The notes under the pieces are model-generated. The model saw only the letters and a list, made by a program, of their open reading frames with translations, searched no databases and was not told the DNA's origin. The translations under genes and the position numbers were made by a program. DNA of 64,000 nt from Thiobacillus denitrificans DSM 12475 (GTDB lineage: Bacteria; Pseudomonadota; Gammaproteobacteria; Burkholderiales; Thiobacillaceae): assembly GCF_000376425.1 (NCBI RefSeq), contig NZ_AQWL01000004.1:1-64000 (forward strand). The letters are read 5' to 3'. How positions within the stretch are numbered: the stretch's first letter is position 1; every line of letters begins with the position of its first letter. Positions 1 through 8,262 of the stretch are shown in pieces.

Positions 1-285
1 GAGGCACCGAGATGGCCGGACACAAGCGCTTTACGTTGGCGACGGACATACAGGTCTATTTCTGTGACCCTCGGAGTCCTTGGCAGCGTGGAACCAATGA
101 AAATACGAATGGGCTACTGCGACAGTATTTCCCCAAGGGAACCGATATTTCGACCTACTCGCAAGCCAAGCTCAATGCCATCGCGAGGAAATTGAATGAG
201 CGCCCTAGGAAAACACTAAACTACGCAACACCCGCCGAACGATTTCACCAATCCGTTGCGTCGATCGGTTGAATCCGCCAGTCCA
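1..285 (+). mobile_element. IS30-family element, right-hand end only
   Basis: The window opens inside an IS30-type transposase gene whose stop codon is followed within a few bases by sequence typical of an IS30 right end. The left part lies outside the window, so whether the element is complete is unknown. The exact right boundary was not determined because the left inverted repeat cannot be compared; 285 is an estimate. Confidence 0.5.
3..272 (+). CDS. IS30-family transposase, C-terminal fragment
   Basis: This is the last ~89 residues of a DDE transposase; the reading frame is already open at the window edge. Visible family features are NGTE near the start (around the second catalytic Asp), the segment [12 protein letters not shown] that carries the catalytic Glu, then RQYFPKGTD and the closing [11 protein letters not shown]...PAERF typical of IS30. 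The enzyme would cut and join the ends of its own element. It sits about 180 bp from the 3' end of the glycan cassette on the opposite strand, which supports an accessory origin for that cassette. The 5' part cannot be judged here. Confidence 0.85.
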
Positions 286-289
286 GAGC

Positions 290-300
290 GGACGTATTCG
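290..300 (+). repeat. 11-bp direct repeat, copy 1 (GGACGTATTCG)
   Basis: The same 11 bases recur at 5588-5598, so the two copies bracket the three-gene glycan cassette. An exact match this long between two short gaps is unlikely by chance, but similar GGAC-rich motifs are common in non-coding debris, so an attachment-site role is only a suggestion. Confidence 0.3.
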
Positions 301-449
301 CCTTGCCCGGCGTAGACCGAGGAGGCGATGGTGGGCCGACTAGTCTCGACCGGCTCGTCGTAGGCCATTGCCGTCATTCCGTTCCTTAGGCCTAAGCGGC
401 GGGATCGGAATGGAAAGCGGCCCCTGATGACTGCGAAATCTGGGGCGAT

Positions 450-2072
450 TCAATCCTTTGCCTGGGGTCGCTTGTTGTCACGAAGGTACTTCTGGTACCT
501 CGTTGACGATTTCAGCATGTAGATACGTCCCTCGACCACAAACCCGTCAAGTTTATGCTGCAACGTGTAAGCTGAAAGATCGGACATCTTGTTGATGAAG
601 CCCTTGTTCTTGAAATTCAGAGATGTATTGCATAAGACGCCATAGCCCGTTAGCGCCTTGAACGCAGCCAGCAACTCGAACATCGGGCGGTTGGTCAGAG
701 CGGACACCGTTTGAATGCGCGCAGTCTGGTTTACATGGGTTACCGCTGCCAGCGCATCCGTGGAGGCCCGATGGGTGTAAAGCATGAACGGGCTTGGGTG
801 ATTGCATCCAAACCACTTTCCCGCGTCATCCTCCAAGCAGACGGGAGCGATCGGACGGAACTGCTCTCGCTGTTTGATGACGTTCAGCCGCTTTCTGGTG
901 CTGGCTTTAAAAGGCGCGGCCAAGATGGAGCGGTTACCAAGAGCGCGCGGTCCAATCTCGTACCGGCCATTTGTCCACCCCATGATCAAATCACTGGCCA
1001 ACATGTCGGCGACGGTTGAAATGTTCGGTTCCCACTCGTCGAAGTGAGCGGCATCGACACCTTCGTCGGACAAGAAATGCAGTCCGGAATAGACATCCCA
1101 CGTGACCTTGGGATTGCCGGTGAAATGGAACTGCGCGTCGATGGCTGTACCAATCGCTGACCCCGAATCGTTCGCGACGGGAGGGACGAACACGTCGCAA
1201 AAGAATCCTGACTCTTTCCACTTCGTGTTCCAGTCGCAATTGAGGCCACATCCTCCCGCTACCAACAATGGCACGCCCCGTTTCAGATTTTCCGTAGCAA
1301 ACCGCTGAAACCGGTCGAACAGACGGTCGCTGAAGATACCCGCGAAGTTGCGGAATTCCGGATCTTCCAGCCCCACGTTGTAGTGCCGCAACTCTTTCAG
1401 GGCTTCACACTGGCTGGGCGTGAGGTGCTGACAATCCTGCAGTAAGAAGGAAATTATTCTCTCTTCCTCTTCCGACGGCTCGCTTCTCTTCGAAAACGAA
1501 GCGAGCGCCATCAATTTTCCTGCATCAGAAAACCGGGAGAATTCGGCGGTGCTTTTGTCGAAAGTTGGATCTGCCAATGCGTAGAGCATTGCGTATCGAT
1601 GGCCAGGCTCTGGCATGACGTCGCCGACCTTCGTCACATTCAACTCTGCATCGATCTCGTAAAACGCTCCGATGACTCCCTCCCAAAGCAGCACGTAACA
1701 GGGAGTTCCCTTCGGCAAGTTGGACATTCCAAAGGCGCATAGGATGTGCGAGCGTTCGTGGGACGATGAAAAGAAGTCGACACTCTTGCCCAACAAGCGC
1801 TTCTTGCTGGTAACTACTTGGTCGCGAAGGCTGCCACGGTAGTCAGCAAAGGCCTCTTGCCCGAGTGGGGAGTCGCCGGGCCACCAACCTCCTCTGCACA
1901 GCACGTCGGGAACGGCCTGAAGTTCGGCGAGTGCGTCGAATGTATCGGGAACAGATAGCGATGAATGCCGGTACTTCGAATTCTTCTCAGCCTCGATGGA
2001 AAACACCAAGCGACCGTCCTCAACATACGTAAATGCGCCGTCGTGGCCAGGGTTATACGAGAGTATCTTCAT
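450..2072 (-). CDS. Carbamoyltransferase, NodU/CmcH family
   Basis: This protein of about 540 residues would transfer a carbamoyl group from carbamoyl phosphate, through an adenylate, to a hydroxyl on a sugar or natural product in the cytoplasm. The N-terminus (MKILSYNPGHDGA) is the family start; a longer frame exists, but the ATG at 2072 matches the family and follows a purine-rich stretch. Further signatures are HERSH near residues 105-109 (HxxxH-type metal site), GGCGLNCDWN near 273-282 and GPRALGNRSI near 374-383. It is the last gene of a minus-strand cassette and overlaps the upstream fusion gene by 20 bp. With glycosyltransferases and a sulfotransferase-like domain next to it, a glycan is the likely acceptor, but its identity is unknown. 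Confidence 0.85.
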   Translation of the reverse strand: MKILSYNPGHDGAFTYVEDGRLVFSIEAEKNSKYRHSSLSVPDTFDALAELQAVPDVLCRGGWWPGDSPLGQEAFADYRGSLRDQVVTSKKRLLGKSVDFFSSSHERSHILCAFGMSNLPKGTPCYVLLWEGVIGAFYEIDAELNVTKVGDVMPEPGHRYAMLYALADPTFDKSTAEFSRFSDAGKLMALASFSKRSEPSEEEERIISFLLQDCQHLTPSQCEALKELRHYNVGLEDPEFRNFAGIFSDRLFDRFQRFATENLKRGVPLLVAGGCGLNCDWNTKWKESGFFCDVFVPPVANDSGSAIGTAIDAQFHFTGNPKVTWDVYSGLHFLSDEGVDAAHFDEWEPNISTVADMLASDLIMGWTNGRYEIGPRALGNRSILAAPFKASTRKRLNVIKQREQFRPIAPVCLEDDAGKWFGCNHPSPFMLYTHRASTDALAAVTHVNQTARIQTVSALTNRPMFELLAAFKALTGYGVLCNTSLNFKNKGFINKMSDLSAYTLQHKLDGFVVEGRIYMLKSSTRYQKYLRDNKRPQAKD

Positions 2073-4296
2073 GTTGCTGTTCCACTGGTAACTGGGCCGT
2101 CCGAGGCGGGATGAACTCATCTTGGCGCTCAGGCAACGATGGGCTGTACGCTCTTACGCGAATCGATTGCACGTGGGTCATGGCCGGAAGCCGGCGGGTG
2201 TTAAGTCGTCCCGCGAGCTGACTGGATCGAGAGGGCCAAGTGTTGATATGTAGTTTCATCGGCAAGTGTGGAATCGGAGTTGGATCCCAAAGCACACGCC
2301 GATGAACAAGCTGATCATCCACCAACCATCGGATCTCGCACGGGGACCATTCGATGGTATACCGATGCATACCCTTCGAGGCGTCGAAGCCCAACTCGAT
2401 GTGGCTTGGGGCACCTCTGTAGCCGTAGTCGAACTGAGCACCTTCATTACCTGGGTTGTAGAAGACGTTGACAAGGAGACGATCTGGCATGTTGCCGGCA
2501 ATCTCGATGTCAATTTCTTGGTGCGGTGAATTACGGTGAAGAAAAAAACCAGTGATCACCCCCGGCACGTTAGACGCTTGGAAAGTAGATTCGAACCTCC
2601 CGAAAAGGTACTGGGCATGACTGCTCAGGGCGCCTGCGCTGTATTGCCGAACGCCTAGCTCTTCTCGACGTACGTGAAACATTGTGCCCCCGGCACCGTG
2701 GAATTCAACGTTCAGCGGACGAAAAAGCGCCAAATTGCCGGTGAAGGTATCGGTCCTTGCAGACCAGCGCAGCGGGTCGAGATGCTCTAGGCGATCATCG
2801 ACATCGATCCACTTTCCTTCGTTCTTATGGACCGTGGGTACAACATGAATACCTAACCAGCCGCGGTGATCAGACTCAACGACCCAGGGGGATCGATCCC
2901 GCTCAGGTGTAGCGCGCTTGCGAGCAAGATCAGTCTTTAGACCGACTTCAAGGGTGTGCCGTTGCCCTAGGTCCTCCAACTTTGGGAACGAGCACGAAGG
3001 TGGCGGACACTTGAGGTGCTCGCAGAGGATCCTCCAAGCATGCACGTCGCCCGAATCAAGCACGACGACGTCCGAGCCTTCGAGGTCGGTTGGAACGCTC
3101 CAAGCGGTTTGAGTAACGGCTTCGCTTGGAGGGAGGGTCACGATGAACTTAGCTTGAGGATAGACGCGTCGAAGGTCCCCGACCATCAATTCCAGACATC
3201 CCACGTTGACGTACGCATTGAAGACCCGGTCGACACTGCCCTCACGAAGCCGCGTCAACTCCAGCAATGGCAGCTCATTCAGATCGCTGCAGCATCGGTA
3301 CCCAAGCATCGACAACGCCATCGCGAGGGAAGACTGGCCTGAGTTGGCAGGCCCAAATGCAAAAACAGGCAGCTGAGTCGGACGAATGTTAAACAGAGCA
3401 GCACCCTCGCTATTGATCGCGCCGATCGTGGAGAGGGTGGGAAGAATCGAGTACAAATTGCTGGAGGGGGCGTCTCTTCTTTGACGAACAAGGGAGCGCC
3501 TCGTTGCTCGCACGTTCAGCACGCTGAACTGATGGTTGATCCAAAGATCGACCGGGCCGCGACAAGGTAGTAAACGAAGAAGCTTTTCTGCGCCTTTTCG
3601 GGAGAGTATGTACCCGGACAAAAACCACAGTCCGCGCACTGGTCGGAACACATTGCTCGACACGAACGTTTTGGGGGCACCATGCGTCACTTCCATGTAC
3701 GACACATAGAGGATGTCGAAGCCTTCGTGCTTTCGTCCTTCGATCGCAATATCCTTCCAAGCTTGGTCCACATGACGGGCAAAACGGGGATGAAACCACA
3801 CGTCGTCTTCAAGGATAAGAGCATTTTCTTGCTCTCCCTGCGCAACTCGCCTCCAAACCTGAATGTGTGATTTGGCAACCGCCACCTCAGCCCTACTCAT
3901 TTGGATAGGTGCTTCAAGCTCGTACCGCGTCGGTAGTGTCTGTGGTTGAGGCTCGACAAAAAGTTGATCTGCCAACGTGTAATAGGGATCGACTTCTGCG
4001 TCTTTGGCGGGATCTTGTGAAAAACATCTTGCATCCACCGCTGCATGCCGTTCCGTGAGGTTGAGAAGCTCAGTGCCGAACGCATCCCGTATGCGTCCAA
4101 GCTCCTGTTTGACGCGGGACCATCGAGTTGGCTCGCGGTCAAGGTTGATTACGTAGATTTTTTCAATCGCCTGACCGTTCAATGTTCGTTGAGCGCCGAA
4201 TGCTTTCGAAGTCTGCACCGGAAGCATCTTGCGAAGGCCGTGCCATAGGTGAAAAGCCAGACGGAGGGCAGCTACGGGGGGGCGTGCCGGATTCAC
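2053..4296 (-). CDS. GT25 glycosyltransferase / sulfotransferase-like / GH16 fusion protein
   Basis: A 747-residue protein with three recognisable parts. Residues ~45-280 look like a GT25 (LPS-type) glycosyltransferase: KIYVINLDREPTRW, then LEDD at 162-165. Residues ~308-450 look like a sulfotransferase: P-loop FGPANSGQSSL at 314-324, YPQAKFIVTL at 379-388, and WRILCEHL...PSCSFPKLED near the end. Residues ~500-715 resemble a GH16 concanavalin-like fold, with the catalytic-type motif EIDIE at 594-598 followed by YTIEW and LVDDQLV. No signal peptide or clear membrane segment is seen. The start is GTG, overlapping the upstream stop as GTGA; an ATG at codon 24 is an alternative. The domain calls rest on motifs only; the middle domain is the least certain. 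Confidence 0.75.
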   Translation of the reverse strand: MNPARPPVAALRLAFHLWHGLRKMLPVQTSKAFGAQRTLNGQAIEKIYVINLDREPTRWSRVKQELGRIRDAFGTELLNLTERHAAVDARCFSQDPAKDAEVDPYYTLADQLFVEPQPQTLPTRYELEAPIQMSRAEVAVAKSHIQVWRRVAQGEQENALILEDDVWFHPRFARHVDQAWKDIAIEGRKHEGFDILYVSYMEVTHGAPKTFVSSNVFRPVRGLWFLSGYILSRKGAEKLLRLLPCRGPVDLWINHQFSVLNVRATRRSLVRQRRDAPSSNLYSILPTLSTIGAINSEGAALFNIRPTQLPVFAFGPANSGQSSLAMALSMLGYRCCSDLNELPLLELTRLREGSVDRVFNAYVNVGCLELMVGDLRRVYPQAKFIVTLPPSEAVTQTAWSVPTDLEGSDVVVLDSGDVHAWRILCEHLKCPPPSCSFPKLEDLGQRHTLEVGLKTDLARKRATPERDRSPWVVESDHRGWLGIHVVPTVHKNEGKWIDVDDRLEHLDPLRWSARTDTFTGNLALFRPLNVEFHGAGGTMFHVRREELGVRQYSAGALSSHAQYLFGRFESTFQASNVPGVITGFFLHRNSPHQEIDIEIAGNMPDRLLVNVFYNPGNEGAQFDYGYRGAPSHIELGFDASKGMHRYTIEWSPCEIRWLVDDQLVHRRVLWDPTPIPHLPMKLHINTWPSRSSQLAGRLNTRRLPAMTHVQSIRVRAYSPSLPERQDEFIPPRTAQLPVEQQHEDTLV

Positions 4297-5168
4297 TGCG
4301 CGTCCGAAAGCGAAGATGCACGGTACGCCTGCTGATTGGACAGCCTCCAGTTCCTCGAGTCGTTGCGGTAGCTAAGTGGCCACTGGCTAATGGATGTCAG
4401 TTCCCAATCGTGCGCAACCATCATCGCGTTAGGCGAGCATCCTTCGTTAAGCACTTCGAACACTGACCGGGTGAGGTTGCCAGGACCGGTCGTAGCCTGG
4501 ACCTCGGGCAACCCGCTCGCTAAATCCGCCTCAAGGGACAAGGTAGCGTTCAACAACGCTCTTTCAACGATGGGGTGATGGCGCGACGCGATCAGAGGCG
4601 TGGTGTTGAAATAGAAAATCCACCCCGGCTGGTTGGCTCCCGGCTCAGTAAAGATTGACGGTGCCACCATTTGAGACGTTGCAATGTCGTAGCAGAACGG
4701 CTGAAGCTTCAGTCGTCCATCCAGGAATAGTTGGTCGATCGGCGTGCCGTGGTAGACATCATCGGCATCGATGTAGAAACCTCCTTCTACGAGCACGTAC
4801 GAGTAACGAAAGTAGTCCGACATCATTGAAGGGTGGTAGCACCTGTTAAAGGCTCTCTCATGGCGAGCACCTAAGCGGTTTCGGATGAACGTTCTTGCAG
4901 AGCTCTCGTCGAACACCTCTAACTCAAACCCGATCCTTTCGAGTTGTTTCCACGAGTCCATGCAGGCTTTGACGTCTTCAGGCAATCGCTGCAGATTGTT
5001 CCAGAACTGCACGATGCGCTTTGGAGTCGGGCTCGCCCACGTCGTCGAGGCGAACGTTAAGACATCACGGCGCTGCACCATGTCACGTACGAAGTTAGAG
5101 CGCGCACGTTCGGTAGGCCCCAGTGGATCGGCTTTGACAGCTTGGTTCATATCTCTTGCTTCGCCCAT
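4293..5168 (-). CDS. GT32-type glycosyltransferase (DXD sugar transferase)
   Basis: A 291-residue cytosolic glycosyltransferase of the DXD sugar-binding (OCH1-like, GT32) group. The fold is shown by RIVQFWNNL at 51-59, the SDYFRYSYVLVEGGFYIDADD segment split around residues 117-137, and the metal/nucleotide-sugar DADD at 134-137. It would transfer a sugar from a nucleotide donor onto a growing surface glycan; donor and acceptor cannot be told. It is the first gene of the cassette and is coupled by a 4-base overlap to the fusion gene. ATG at 5168 is used; an ATG seven codons in is possible. The region upstream is free of genes, so the cassette promoter probably lies in 5169-5300, though no clear boxes are seen. 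Confidence 0.8.
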   Translation of the reverse strand: MGEARDMNQAVKADPLGPTERARSNFVRDMVQRRDVLTFASTTWASPTPKRIVQFWNNLQRLPEDVKACMDSWKQLERIGFELEVFDESSARTFIRNRLGARHERAFNRCYHPSMMSDYFRYSYVLVEGGFYIDADDVYHGTPIDQLFLDGRLKLQPFCYDIATSQMVAPSIFTEPGANQPGWIFYFNTTPLIASRHHPIVERALLNATLSLEADLASGLPEVQATTGPGNLTRSVFEVLNEGCSPNAMMVAHDWELTSISQWPLSYRNDSRNWRLSNQQAYRASSLSDAQ

Positions 5169-5746
5169 TATTACGTTTGTCCCTATGACATAGTGTTGGC
5201 AATTATGGGGGCCTTGGATGAGTTACTACAAACTGCGCGCGCTCTGCGGGGCAGCTGACATGCCTGATTGAGCTGCTCGTTGCGTAGCAGGAGGCGGTAG
5301 ACCTAGTCGCGCGCATACAGAATGGCTGGCCGCCGGGGCAACTGACCGAGCAACGTTCTACGATGGCGGGGCTGAAGGGGGGGTGGACTATCCGGCTTAT
5401 TTTGTTCAGCTAAGGTGACGGGGTGTTCTCCATGCTCCATTTTCGCCGTGGCCTCGTCGGGTCAAAGCCAGACTGAAGTCTTCATTAACCGCAGAACGAT
5501 CACCAGCACTGGCTGCCGACCGGCCGCAACGGGGGCACAGCCCACTGCCTGAACGGTTCTGCTGAACGTCTCTAATCAGCCTATAGGGGACGTATTCGGT
5601 TGCAGTCTTGAGCGGCCGCTCAGGCCGAACAAGAGACAGGCGTACCTCTCAGCTTGAGCTTCTGCTCCTGGCCGGCACCAGCCCGACAACCTGATGCCAG
5701 AAAGCGGCCACCCCGCCGAAAACGGTGTGGCCGCAGAAGAGTATCG
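5169..5746. other. Gene-free stretch between glycan cassette and recombinase
   Basis: About 580 bp without a credible gene in any frame; the short ORFs have no recognisable protein features. It must contain the promoter of the minus-strand cassette and the end of the recombinase gene. It includes one copy of an 11-bp repeat (5588-5598). The texture looks like decayed mobile-element debris, but no family was identified. Confidence 0.5.
5588..5598 (+). repeat. 11-bp direct repeat, copy 2 (GGACGTATTCG)
   Basis: Second copy of the repeat at 290-300, same orientation. TTGC follows shortly after both copies with one base of spacing difference. Confidence 0.3.
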
Positions 5747-6364
5747 CTAGATTTCCGTCTGCTCGGAAATCTCCAAAGCGTCGTCCACCTCGATGCCGAG
5801 GTAGTGGACCGTGCTTTCCAGTTTGGTGTGACCAAGCAGGAGCTGAACGGCCCGAAGATTCTTCGTCCGTTTGTAGATCAGCGTGGCCTTGGTGCGACGC
5901 ATCGAATGCGTCCCATATGCCGATGAATCCAGCCCAACAGCGTGGACCCAATGATGCACGAGGCGCGCATATTGGCGAGTCGACACGTGCGGTGACCTGC
6001 TGACCCGGCTTGGAAACAGATACTGGTCGGTGGTATGCAACTGAGCCTTTTCGATCCAGGCTGCCACAGCGATTCTCGTTGGCTCCGTCAATTCAAATTG
6101 GACGGGACGCTGCGTCTTCCGCTGGATGACCATGGCACGAGAGAGGATCTGGTGCCCGTTGGTCACGTCACGCACGTGCAGATTGACGAGATCGCAGCCG
6201 CGCAGTTTGCTGTCGATCGCCAAGTTGAACATGGCAAGGTCACGGACGGCATGTCTGTTCTGTAGGTGTATACGGATGGCCCAGATGTCCTTGGGCTTCA
6301 GCGGCGGCTTCTGGCCAACAAGCTTGCCCTTGTTCCATGCTTGCCGTTGTGGGATGTTTTCCAT
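5747..6364 (-). CDS. Small tyrosine recombinase, FimB/FimE-sized
   Basis: A 205-residue tyrosine site-specific recombinase made almost only of a catalytic domain. All six expected residues are visible: Arg55 in SKLRG, Lys83 in QRKT, His153 and Arg156 in HSMRR, His179 in LLGHT and the nucleophile Tyr188 in VHYLG. The usual N-terminal core-binding domain is missing; only ~25 residues precede the catalytic fold, the size of FimB/FimE inverters rather than phage integrases (300-400 residues). The ATG at 6364 follows a strong AAGGAG site, so the gene looks intact, not truncated. It ends close to the accessory glycan cassette and may have moved with it. No partner recombinase and no convincing invertible segment were found nearby. 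Confidence 0.85.
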   Translation of the reverse strand: MENIPQRQAWNKGKLVGQKPPLKPKDIWAIRIHLQNRHAVRDLAMFNLAIDSKLRGCDLVNLHVRDVTNGHQILSRAMVIQRKTQRPVQFELTEPTRIAVAAWIEKAQLHTTDQYLFPSRVSRSPHVSTRQYARLVHHWVHAVGLDSSAYGTHSMRRTKATLIYKRTKNLRAVQLLLGHTKLESTVHYLGIEVDDALEISEQTEI

Positions 6365-6457
6365 GACAGACTCCTTGGTTGTTGAAGGGAATCTGTTTGA
6401 AGATCACGGAAGCGAAGTCCGCTATCTGGTGGGGTTTTCTTCGCGCACTATCGGCCA

Positions 6458-6469
6458 AAAAGGGACATT
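6458..6469 (+). repeat. 12-bp direct repeat AAAAGGGACATT, copy 1
   Basis: Identical 12-base copies occur here and at 6504-6515, 46 bp apart, upstream of the recombinase gene. They could be recombinase or transposase binding sites at an element end, or leftover insertion-sequence terminal repeats; which one is not decidable from one window. Confidence 0.5.
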
Positions 6470-6503
6470 GGCCTAGTTCATCTAGGGACCTGCTTACCCT
6501 CCC

Positions 6504-6515
6504 AAAAGGGACATT
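6504..6515 (+). repeat. 12-bp direct repeat AAAAGGGACATT, copy 2
   Basis: Second identical copy, 46 bp downstream of the first and just before an AT-rich stretch that leads to the EAL gene. Confidence 0.5.
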
Positions 6516-6590
6516 CACCCTGTCCATATTATTGGAGGTTATTATAGAGACGCAGGAAATCGATAACGATTAAAAATCAGGAGGATAGGA

Positions 6591-6622
6591 GTCCATAATG
6601 GGCGCCCTGAATAATTATGGAC
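6591..6622. promoter_or_regulatory. Perfect 9-bp inverted repeat in the leader of the EAL gene
   Basis: GTCCATAAT at 6591-6599 is mirrored by ATTATGGAC at 6614-6622, with 14 bp between the arms. A related GTCCATA sits at 6522. The right arm ends 15 bp before the TTG start of the phosphodiesterase gene and overlaps no gene. It could be an operator for a dimeric regulator or an RNA hairpin near the ribosome-binding site (purine-rich, 6626-6634). The role is inferred from position and symmetry only. Confidence 0.45.
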
Positions 6623-6636
6623 GTTAGGGGGGAGGC

Positions 6637-8262
6637 TTGAACAAGCGGGCCGTAATTGGTATCGCCGTAGTCGTAGGCGTCCTTGCGATTGCAGCACCCA
6701 TCGCAGCCTCCCTGTATTGGGCTGAGAAGCAAAACCTCGCGGAACAGCAGAGCCGGGGCGACAGAGTGGCCAGCGAAGTCCTTCGGCGCATGGATCTTAT
6801 GGCCGACGAGACCTTCGAAATGTTCCGCCTGATGAAGGCTGCCAAGGCTACCGACTCATGTTCGGAGCAGAACATCCGCTTGATGCGTCGCATCGCCATG
6901 CAAATGGACCAGCTTAAGGCAGTGGGGTACGTGGCGAACGATCACTTAATATGCAGCTCATTCGGCCGCCATGACGTAGGAAGCATGGGCATCCCGCTCG
7001 GCCCGCCAGCATACCGCAGCCCTCTCGGCTCTGATGTCCGCACATCGGTTCGATTCGAAGATGTTCCGGGCAAGACTTTCCTCGTCTCGACAGACAGATC
7101 AACCGGCTATACCGCCATAATAGATGGCGATCAAGCGCTTCTGCCAAACGTGCCGGATATTTCGATGGGCGCATTTTTCGGTTCCACGAAGACACCCCTT
7201 GTGTCGCATGGCGATTTCAATCCGCGATGGATGGAAGAACTCGGCAGTGCGACAGAGGCACATTTTTCCAGTGGCCGACATCTCGTCGCGTTCAAGAGGT
7301 CTTCAAAATATACGTTCGCATCGTTCGCTGCGATTAAACAAACGACGGTAAGAGAAGGCTTACAACGCGCGGCAATGCTTATGATCCCCGCCGGCGTCGG
7401 TGCCGGTCTGGTGCTCGCGCTCGCAGTCTTTTACGGGACGAGATACCAGATGTCTCCCCGTGCTTTGATCAAGGCCGGTCTGAGGCGGAACGAATTCTTT
7501 CTCGTTTATCAACCGGTTGTCGAGCTACAGAGCGGCAGGTGTGTCGGGGCAGAAGCGCTCATCCGCTGGCGCCGACCTGATGGCACGATAGTAAGACCAG
7601 ACATGTTCATCCCGTACGCCGAAGAATCGGGACTCATCCACGATATAACGAAGGAGGTGCTGCGGCTCGTCGCTCACGACACGGCGCGATTCCTCAAGGC
7701 ACATCCGCATCTGCACATCGGGATCAACCTGTCGTCCAAAGACTTGGTGATCGCCGAGACTACGCAGCTTGTGCGCGACCTCATCCGCGAGATGGGCGTC
7801 AAGCCACATAATATTATGGTTGAGGCGACAGAACGCGGCTTCATGCAGGCGGACGTCGCACGACGCATAATGGACGATATCCACTCCCTCGACGTGCGAA
7901 TCGCCATCGATGATTTCGGCACCGACTATTCCAGCTTGTCCTACCTGGAGAAGTTCCATCTCGACTATCTGAAAATCGACAAGTCCTTTGTTGATACGAT
8001 GGGCGGTGAAGCCGCAACCAGCCAGGTCGCACTGCATATCATTGAGATGGCGAAGTCGCTCAAGCTGGAGATGATTGCCGAAGGAGTGGAAACCGAAGAA
8101 CAACGCCGCTTTTTGGCGCAGCGAGGCGTTCAATACGCGCAGGGCTACCTCTTCGCCAAGCCGTTGCCGTTTGCGGAGTTCGCCGCGTATGTGGAAAAGA
8201 CGGAAAAGCAGCCTGACCCAGTGGTAGGCGCGATGCAATATCCGCTTTTGACCGACTCGTGA
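6637..8262 (+). CDS. CSS-motif cyclic-di-GMP phosphodiesterase (EAL domain)
   Basis: A 541-residue inner-membrane enzyme predicted to hydrolyse c-di-GMP to pGpG. Layout: TM helix at ~5-27; a periplasmic CSS domain with Cys75 and Cys106 (ICSS); a second TM helix at ~245-267; then a cytoplasmic EAL domain. Catalytic features are intact: EAL at 306-308, DDFGT at 425-429, Lys446 in YLKID and AEGVE near 481-485, so it should be active. In this family the periplasmic cysteines are known to be redox-controlled. No GGDEF domain is present. The start is TTG after a strong GGGGGGAGG site; no nearer ATG fits the membrane helix. It is a single-gene unit downstream of the 6591-6622 inverted repeat. Confidence 0.92.
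   Translation: MNKRAVIGIAVVVGVLAIAAPIAASLYWAEKQNLAEQQSRGDRVASEVLRRMDLMADETFEMFRLMKAAKATDSCSEQNIRLMRRIAMQMDQLKAVGYVANDHLICSSFGRHDVGSMGIPLGPPAYRSPLGSDVRTSVRFEDVPGKTFLVSTDRSTGYTAIIDGDQALLPNVPDISMGAFFGSTKTPLVSHGDFNPRWMEELGSATEAHFSSGRHLVAFKRSSKYTFASFAAIKQTTVREGLQRAAMLMIPAGVGAGLVLALAVFYGTRYQMSPRALIKAGLRRNEFFLVYQPVVELQSGRCVGAEALIRWRRPDGTIVRPDMFIPYAEESGLIHDITKEVLRLVAHDTARFLKAHPHLHIGINLSSKDLVIAETTQLVRDLIREMGVKPHNIMVEATERGFMQADVARRIMDDIHSLDVRIAIDDFGTDYSSLSYLEKFHLDYLKIDKSFVDTMGGEAATSQVALHIIEMAKSLKLEMIAEGVETEEQRRFLAQRGVQYAQGYLFAKPLPFAEFAAYVEKTEKQPDPVVGAMQYPLLTDS

Follow-up and report, generated by a model that had tools for sequence, protein, structure and literature searches.

The first 64,000 nucleotides of contig NZ_AQWL01000004.1 of Thiobacillus denitrificans DSM 12475 (hereafter the window) carry three adjoining minus-strand genes, between positions 450 and 5168, that may form an undescribed defence or surface-change module. 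We propose that the mobile core of this cassette is a pair of genes, one encoding an OCH1-like glycosyltransferase (gene 1) and the other a fusion of a GT25 glycosyltransferase, a former sulfotransferase and a family 16 glycoside hydrolase (GH16; gene 2), and that a carbamoyltransferase (gene 3) is often the third member. The putative function rests on sequence-derived evidence: gene content and order, shared history, mostly sharp edges, catalytic residues, the lack of an indicated export signal, and neighbourhood. Taken whole, the reading of an undescribed mobile glycan cassette that helps its host against phages falls, in our judgement, just short of an even balance. The enzyme families are all known; their fusion, pairing and mobility appear to be new.

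Gene 2 joins three domains in one reading frame

Gene 2 had been predicted, from the DNA alone, to encode three glycan-active modules on one chain of 747 codons at 2053..4296. The frame lies exactly there, on the minus strand, with a GTG start at 4296 and a stop at 2053 (747 residues); the quoted motifs VINLDREPTRW, FGPANSGQSSL, WRILCEHL...FPKLED and EIDIE all occur in its translation, and there is no frameshift scar between the three segments. Pfam matched GT25 (residues 45-250, E 5.5e-14, 52.9 bits against a cut-off of 24), Sulfotransfer_4 (residues 311-387, barely over its cut-off at 23.5 against 22.8 bits) and GH16 (residues 545-695, E 4.4e-28) in the predicted order, and the whole-fusion model reached a predicted local distance difference score (pLDDT) of 82.3 and a predicted template-modelling score (pTM) of 0.68. 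A search for the same architecture elsewhere recovered relatives in 89 fetched loci (L003-L008, L011-L090 and L121-L123), some of them cut by contig ends; six come from nine plasmid records with at least 80% of the query covered at one place. Because relatives exist in these 89 loci, an assembly error can be dismissed as the origin of the fusion. Among 65 family members (62 of the 74 alignment rows described below plus three plasmid copies), Pfam at E<=0.01 found GH16 and GT25 in all 65 and Sulfotransfer_4 in 49.

The genome loci are the best 80 of 149 stretches encoding a fusion relative, which an alignment-based search found among 84,980 species genomes. The 74-row fusion alignment contains the window and 73 of these 80 loci, the partial or off-length L067, L070, L071, L082, L084, L085 and L089 being left out; a further row set (A8) holds 73 of the 74, without L081. 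Adding L003-L009 to the window and the 73 loci gives 81 full-length rows, which represent 79 different proteins (L009 is identical to L018, and L006 to L080).

Both outer domains are strongly conserved at their catalytic residues. In the GT25 domain (residues 44-300, 3397..4167, minus strand), the acidic metal-binding motif E163 D164 D165 (3802-3810) is unchanged in every one of the 81 full-length rows. The best solved relative is procollagen galactosyltransferase 1 (E about 4e-6); the fusion shares its Pfam domain (PF01755, also of LgtB type) and an invariant EDD with the GT25 family and differs from it in bearing two further domains and in having an OCH1-like partner in 84 of 89 loci. In the GH16 domain (residues 495-718, 2143..2814, minus strand; EIDIE at 2503-2517), the ExDxE residues E594, D596 and E598, as well as W650 and W657, are likewise invariant in all 81 rows. 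Foldseek matched the C-terminal part of the fusion model to lichenases (E about 1e-17, target-normalised TM score 0.83-0.86 for the nine best chains), which are bacterial 1,3-1,4-beta-glucanases, followed by Crh (Crh5 among the later matches), carrageenase, laminarinase and XTH-type enzymes. The possibility that this part is a non-catalytic lectin is therefore rejected, since the model is lichenase-like and the catalytic residues are invariant. The GT25 and GH16 activities are very likely intact, as judged from sequence and model. In contrast to the GH16 lichenases, Crh enzymes and XTH transglycosylases with which it shares fold and ExDxE motif, this domain has no indicated signal peptide and is joined to a glycosyltransferase. 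In none of the 81 rows does any 19-residue segment within residues 1-50 reach a Kyte-Doolittle mean of 1.6, a crude test for a signal peptide or membrane span. Residues 6-24 (4225..4281, minus strand) form a basic helix in the model, a possible anchor at the membrane surface.

A sulfotransferase fold that is probably inactive

What has become of the middle domain? The segment at residues 301-445 (2962..3396, minus strand) is, by profile, model and alignment, a true sulfotransferase relative in its fold. Searched against the PDB, its profile picks up sulfotransferases or SgdX2 in the nine top places (E 2.3e-5 to 4.8e-3), and Foldseek with its model (pLDDT 87) placed sulfotransferases at ranks 1-5, blood-fluke enzymes first (E 7.5e-4, the sole match below 0.001), and gluconate kinase at rank 6. 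With the sulfotransferases that use 3'-phosphoadenosine 5'-phosphosulfate (PAPS), such as Sulfotransfer_4 members, Schistosoma SULT-OR and SgdX2, it shares the P-loop alpha/beta core and the closing W..LC motif. The glycine/serine P-loop is kept in most members (G315 in 73, G320 in 70 and S323 in 67 of 74 rows) and is not recognisable in three divergent copies on plasmids (L006, L007 and L008).

A Lys or Arg in the PAPS loop and the Arg and Ser of the 3'-phosphate segment are essential in sulfotransferases. Residue 318 is the position that alignment by eye pairs with the PAPS-loop base. In 77 of 81 rows it is Gly (41), Asn (22), Asp (10) or Ser (4), with one Ile and one Glu among the 79 rows counted, and in one row of the 74-row alignment it is Lys. 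No conservation was found in that alignment at positions 388-395, the second (3'-phosphate) PAPS-binding segment, and profile alignments to 5tiz and 8y9p omit about 60-70 sulfotransferase residues past these positions; the domain has 147 residues compared with about 250 in sulfotransferases. Because the PAPS-loop base is mostly gone, the second segment is unconserved and dozens of residues are missing, the domain is probably not an active sulfotransferase, and we regard a non-catalytic role as highly probable. The ratio of nonsynonymous to synonymous substitution rates (dN/dS) indicates purifying selection, at 0.15-0.44 in seven pairs; in the same pairs it is 0.09-0.16 for GT25 and 0.08-0.24 for GH16, so constraint on the middle domain is looser than on GT25 in seven of seven and than on GH16 in six of seven. 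We take the domain, on the strength of these alignments, to be a retired sulfotransferase serving as a spacer or ligand-binding part.

These observations bear on the original prediction that one chain makes, sulfates and cuts a glycan. The presence of a sulfotransferase fold in the right place, with the P-loop of most members, agrees with it, and its GT25 and GH16 modules stand; the absence of the PAPS-loop base from nearly all rows, the unconserved second PAPS segment and the dozens of missing residues, together with a P-loop that is not recognisable in three plasmid copies, make a three-activity enzyme very improbable. The fold was correctly recognised, the sulfating activity is not supported, and the prediction missed that the fusion belongs to a set of two or three genes transferred together.

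A conserved glycosyltransferase partner and an optional carbamoyltransferase

Directly 5' of the fusion, on the same strand and overlapping it by 4 nucleotides, gene 1 (4293..5168, 291 residues) encodes an OCH1-like glycosyltransferase of the Gly_transf_sug family (PF04488, E 1.1e-5) with the DxD motif YIDADD. Its family profile matches initiation-specific alpha-1,6-mannosyltransferase (E 8.5e-7), and D134 and D136 are invariant in an alignment of 59 rows, out of 71 listed for this gene. With the exception of five loci, gene 1 accompanies the fusion in all 89; in four of the five the contig ends within 113 nucleotides of the fusion match, and the fifth, L085, is a partial fusion match. The two genes are on the same strand in 83 of 83 measured pairs and within 100 nucleotides of one another in 81, the commonest spacing being the 4-nucleotide overlap. 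Likewise, plasmid relatives of gene 1 at 40% identity or more occur in exactly the nine fusion-carrying records. In the Aliarcobacter butzleri plasmid copy L006 (14083-14932), gene 1 is annotated as two successive hypothetical proteins, so this copy appears broken; unbroken copies are annotated on other Aliarcobacter plasmids. In two Chryseobacterium loci (L048, 7522-9117; L049, 339-1934), a 532-residue DUF6119 protein immediately precedes gene 1 (E 1.7e-131 in L048; the L049 protein falls in the same cluster).

Gene 3 (450..2120, minus strand) encodes a NodU/GdmN/TobZ-type carbamoyltransferase (Carbam_trans_C, E 1.2e-52; Carbam_trans_N, E 3.2e-22). Its likely start is the ATG at 2072, which gives 540 residues and a 20-nucleotide overlap with the fusion; the family consensus opens MKILSYN. 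Solved carbamoyltransferases are matched in the PDB (best E 4.7e-45), and the metal-binding H121-x3-H125 is kept in all 28 rows of an alignment drawn from 39 listed for this gene. Gene 3 is matched in 54 of the 89 fusion loci, in some only partially, and in these 54 it lies downstream on the same strand in 45, on the opposite strand in seven and upstream in two. It is missing from 24 loci in which at least 2.5 kb is visible on either side, the other 11 being undecided. The seven loci in which a carbamoyltransferase stands beside gene 1 on the opposite strand (L053, L055, L059, L061, L063, L068 and L122) indicate more than one event of joining or rearrangement for the third gene. In the Rhizorhabdus wittichii plasmid copy (L004, 17178-19739), an IS4-family transposase is annotated inside the carbamoyltransferase gene, with genes 1 and 2 open.

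The kinship of gene 3 raises the alternative of small-molecule or signal biosynthesis, in which a carbamoylated oligosaccharide, like a Nod factor or an aminoglycoside, would be exported or act on neighbours. Gene 3 has both Pfam domains of the NodU/GdmN/TobZ O-carbamoyltransferases and matches solved members; against the narrower NodU model it scores 252.5 bits, below the curated cut-off of 1000. Unlike those enzymes, it is an optional member of a glycan cassette rather than part of a Nod-factor or antibiotic cluster. We consider this alternative improbable, as the gene is dispensable in the 24 loci just mentioned and as, beyond the cassette genes, only recombinases recur appreciably among neighbouring gene clusters (12 of 88 loci; every other cluster in at most five).

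Shared history, sharp edges and wide distribution

The three genes share a history, to judge from their identity matrices, whose pairwise correlations are 0.91, 0.81 and 0.85 (rank correlation rho, on 74, 40 and 37 loci); no value as high arose in 999 permutations. Across the 13 close loci listed, DNA homology to the window is confined to 450-5191. A Halieaceae and a Cupriavidus locus have 3,478 bp in common at 95% identity and nothing else in 22 kb each, and the Citrobacter plasmid and a Rheinheimera genome have 4,640 bp in common at 92%. Most of 11 compared pairs share the cassette alone plus at most a few hundred flanking bases, with the following exceptions: L011 and L020, and L006 and L080, are alike across the whole of a short contig, and L015 and L016 share an extra 209 bp. 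The edges of nine loci yielded no convincing terminal repeats, only a few 9-mers; for that reason the cassette looks like passive cargo, and we reject a transposon-like unit with its own ends.

By tblastn over at least 80% of its length, the fusion protein is found in nine plasmid records: Citrobacter freundii (72% identity), Rhizorhabdus wittichii (69%), Klebsiella michiganensis (50%), Sphingobium (43%), four Aliarcobacter (42%) and Rhizobium leguminosarum (36%). It is sparse at every taxonomic range sampled. Among 101 near genomes, E<=0.001 was reached by two, namely the genome itself and one weak GT25-only match; two of 398 genomes of the phylum sample matched at 1e-20 and, in the class sample of 369, one did at 1e-50, the own genome included in each. 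Labels were available for 72 of 81 tree rows and name 20 phyla, although many come from bins and some are doubtful; named strains and complete plasmids back at least Pseudomonadota, Bacteroidota, Campylobacterota and Actinomycetota (Pseudarthrobacter siccitolerans 4J27). The phylum label changes 28 times on the tree, compared with a mean of 37 for shuffled labels and a least possible number of 19, which is no proof of transfer; Pseudomonadota alone account for 11 changes. The clustering of labels and these 11 changes together indicate that descent within groups and movement between them both occur, and we conclude from the sequence comparisons that widely differing bacteria, as well as plasmids and prophages, have exchanged the cassette.

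Two further matches may reflect very recent transfer or a binning error: L011 (a Methylomirabilota bin) and L020 (a Burkholderiaceae bin) share 5,788 bp, cassette included, at 99.97%, and L080 (a Fusobacteriaceae bin) matches an Aliarcobacter plasmid at 99.9% across 3.4 kb. The fusion is not a typical phage gene, as tblastn gave no match in 50,697 phage records, with three IMG/VR contigs carrying it. Nor was an E. coli cassette found: the Citrobacter copy had no megablast match there, more distant copies not being sought.

Defence-type islands and a prophage copy

The nearest neighbours of the cassette (147 of 350 eligible proteins, from 76 loci) match 382 PADLOC models at 1e-5, compared with 41 for 135 control proteins, drawn from 20 distant regions in 20 of these genomes, the control being random chromosome stretches rather than other islands. 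GajA, GajB, PtuA, AriA, AbiLi and RTasHel are among the commonest neighbour models. Among the 25 commonest Pfam families, neighbours show integrases, SMC/AAA_15/AAA_21, UvrD, TIR, GmrSD and OLD-TOPRIM, and the control shows epimerases, TPR and ABC transporters. Around several of the plasmid copies, at distances up to some 15 kb, there are Shedu, Abi, RES/Xre, multiubiquitin/ThiF or DUF262 genes. The cassette thus sits in defence-type islands; because the control is random chromosome, it is the location that is established by this comparison and not a defence function of the cassette itself.

One copy lies in a P2-like prophage. The IMG/VR contig L121 encodes, in order, a scaffold protease, terminase, portal and DNA methylase followed by genes 1, 2 and 3, which places this copy on the portal side; the contig stops after gene 3, the gpA side lying beyond it. 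The other two contigs encode a serine recombinase and a terminase (L122) and two helicases (L123). An antiviral hotspot has been described in P2 between gpA and gpQ (PMC9122126, PMC9519451), and the L121 cassette is on the same portal side as this cos-proximal hotspot. The main text of PMC9122126 uses neither "glycosyl" nor "carbamoyl", and the main text of PMC9519451 is likewise free of glycosyl or carbamoyl terms.

A proposed function and its strongest rival

We propose that the cassette would act as a self-contained cytosolic unit, probably on the membrane's inner face. The crude criterion of a Kyte-Doolittle mean of 1.6 over 19 residues is reached in only 2 of 81, 0 of 77 and 1 of 43 rows for genes 2, 1 and 3, respectively; given that hardly any membrane span and no signal peptide are indicated, both glycosyltransferases, the GH16 domain and the carbamoyltransferase are expected in the cytosol. 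First, the two glycosyltransferase activities would assemble a short glycan on an acceptor that is widely available; that this product sits on a membrane acceptor we rate as somewhat less likely than not. Second, the GH16 domain, tethered by the retired sulfotransferase-fold spacer, would trim or transfer the short glycan, and whether it acts on the cassette's own product in this way we consider evenly balanced. Third, gene 3, where present, would add a carbamoyl cap. The 25 commonest Pfam families of the 147 neighbours include none of the nucleotide-sugar, flippase or polymerase kinds, rarer families lying outside this view, and the cassette enzymes therefore probably use universal donors and an acceptor common to very different envelopes. 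The benefit would most plausibly be resistance to phages or other mobile elements, which would explain the carriage of the cassette by plasmids, prophages and defence islands; an anti-phage benefit is, on balance, somewhat favoured.

A bolder version is an intracellular, pan-bacterial defence by glycan chemistry, in which the OCH1-like and GT25/GH16 enzymes would both install and rewrite a sugar on a universal acceptor (a lipid carrier, a glycolipid or a protein) and so stop phages or plasmids, with carbamoylation optional and the retired sulfotransferase domain a ligand sensor or hinge. We think this rather unlikely.

The strongest rival is that the cassette is ordinary surface-glycan cargo, which would decorate O-antigen, capsule or another glycan in the style of lysogenic conversion and affect phages through their receptors. 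Surface-glycan pathways include members of the GT25, OCH1-like and carbamoyltransferase families, one copy of the cassette is in a P2-like prophage, and the GH16 profile models matched include ExoK, far below its curated cut-off (48.6 against 350 bits). However, no membrane protein was found in the cassette by the crude hydropathy test, and the flippase and membrane glycosyltransferases that Gtr-type serotype conversion operons carry have no counterpart among its genes by that measure; the absence of nucleotide-sugar, flippase and polymerase families from the 25 commonest of the neighbours stands against the epimerases of the control; and the hosts are both Gram-negative and Gram-positive, which makes any one host-specific surface polymer a poor common acceptor. 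This rival is accordingly doubtful in our eyes while deserving serious weight. A third possibility, that plasmids and islands carry the cassette as selfish or fitness cargo of another kind, concerned with stabilisation or the exclusion of related plasmids and not directed at phages, would fit its carriage by conjugative and non-mobilisable plasmids and the recombinases near some loci. Its enzymes, however, are of glycan families and not of toxin-antitoxin types, and anti-phage type neighbours are enriched, and we rate this possibility lower still than small-molecule biosynthesis.

Several points weigh against a protective function. The neighbourhood is guilt by association, and any cargo of mobile islands would look alike; PADLOC models are redundant, sampling was unequal (76 loci against 20 genomes), and control proteins also match the mad, AriA, HEC and DrmC models. 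The Citrobacter and A. butzleri copies are also near drug-resistance genes and the Rhizobium copy lies among metabolic genes, so the surroundings are not always defensive. Genes 1-3 and the neighbouring recombinase had no match at E<=1 in PADLOC-DB 2.0.0 (2023). Phylum labels cluster beyond shuffled ones, and therefore not every step was a jump between phyla. A GH16 enzyme free of an export signal is odd, because its solved relatives act on extracellular polymers. Finally, phage resistance could equally stem from ordinary surface modification.

If the cassette is protective, it would be a defence module built of glycosyltransferases and a glycoside hydrolase, not of nucleases, NADases or pore formers, and one portable among bacteria without a common surface polymer; such portability turns the identity of the acceptor into an interesting question, and one open to direct test. 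Should it instead modify the surface, a 3.5-4.7 kb unit that occurs across many lineages would still be a compact tool for glyco-engineering. The cassette also provides a name for plasmid genes annotated merely as "family 16 glycosylhydrolase", "glycosyltransferase" or "hypothetical protein". No paper describing the gene set was found in the open-licence literature; the restriction to open-licence papers makes this weak evidence of absence.

Other features of the window

The window contains no Rfam family above its gathering score and no tRNA gene. A small tyrosine recombinase of 205 residues (5747..6364, minus strand; Phage_integrase, E 2.3e-20) lies 0.6 kb upstream of the cassette and has 60% identity to the two recombinase copies on either side of the cassette in the Klebsiella michiganensis plasmid. 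It is a neighbour rather than a cassette member, given how few loci have a recombinase cluster and that its relatives occur on 1,393 plasmid records. The two Klebsiella genes (L005, 12624-13226 and 17283-17885) form a direct repeat around the cassette, 94% identical over about 706 bp, and are possibly the route by which that copy was captured.

Positions 1-8000 of the window have about 55% G+C, compared with 59-71% per kilobase beyond, and the cassette lies inside this low-G+C stretch; because the contig begins at position 1, the island's left end falls outside it. The same stretch carries, on the plus strand at 6637-8262, a CSS-motif EAL cyclic-di-GMP phosphodiesterase recognised by Pfam.

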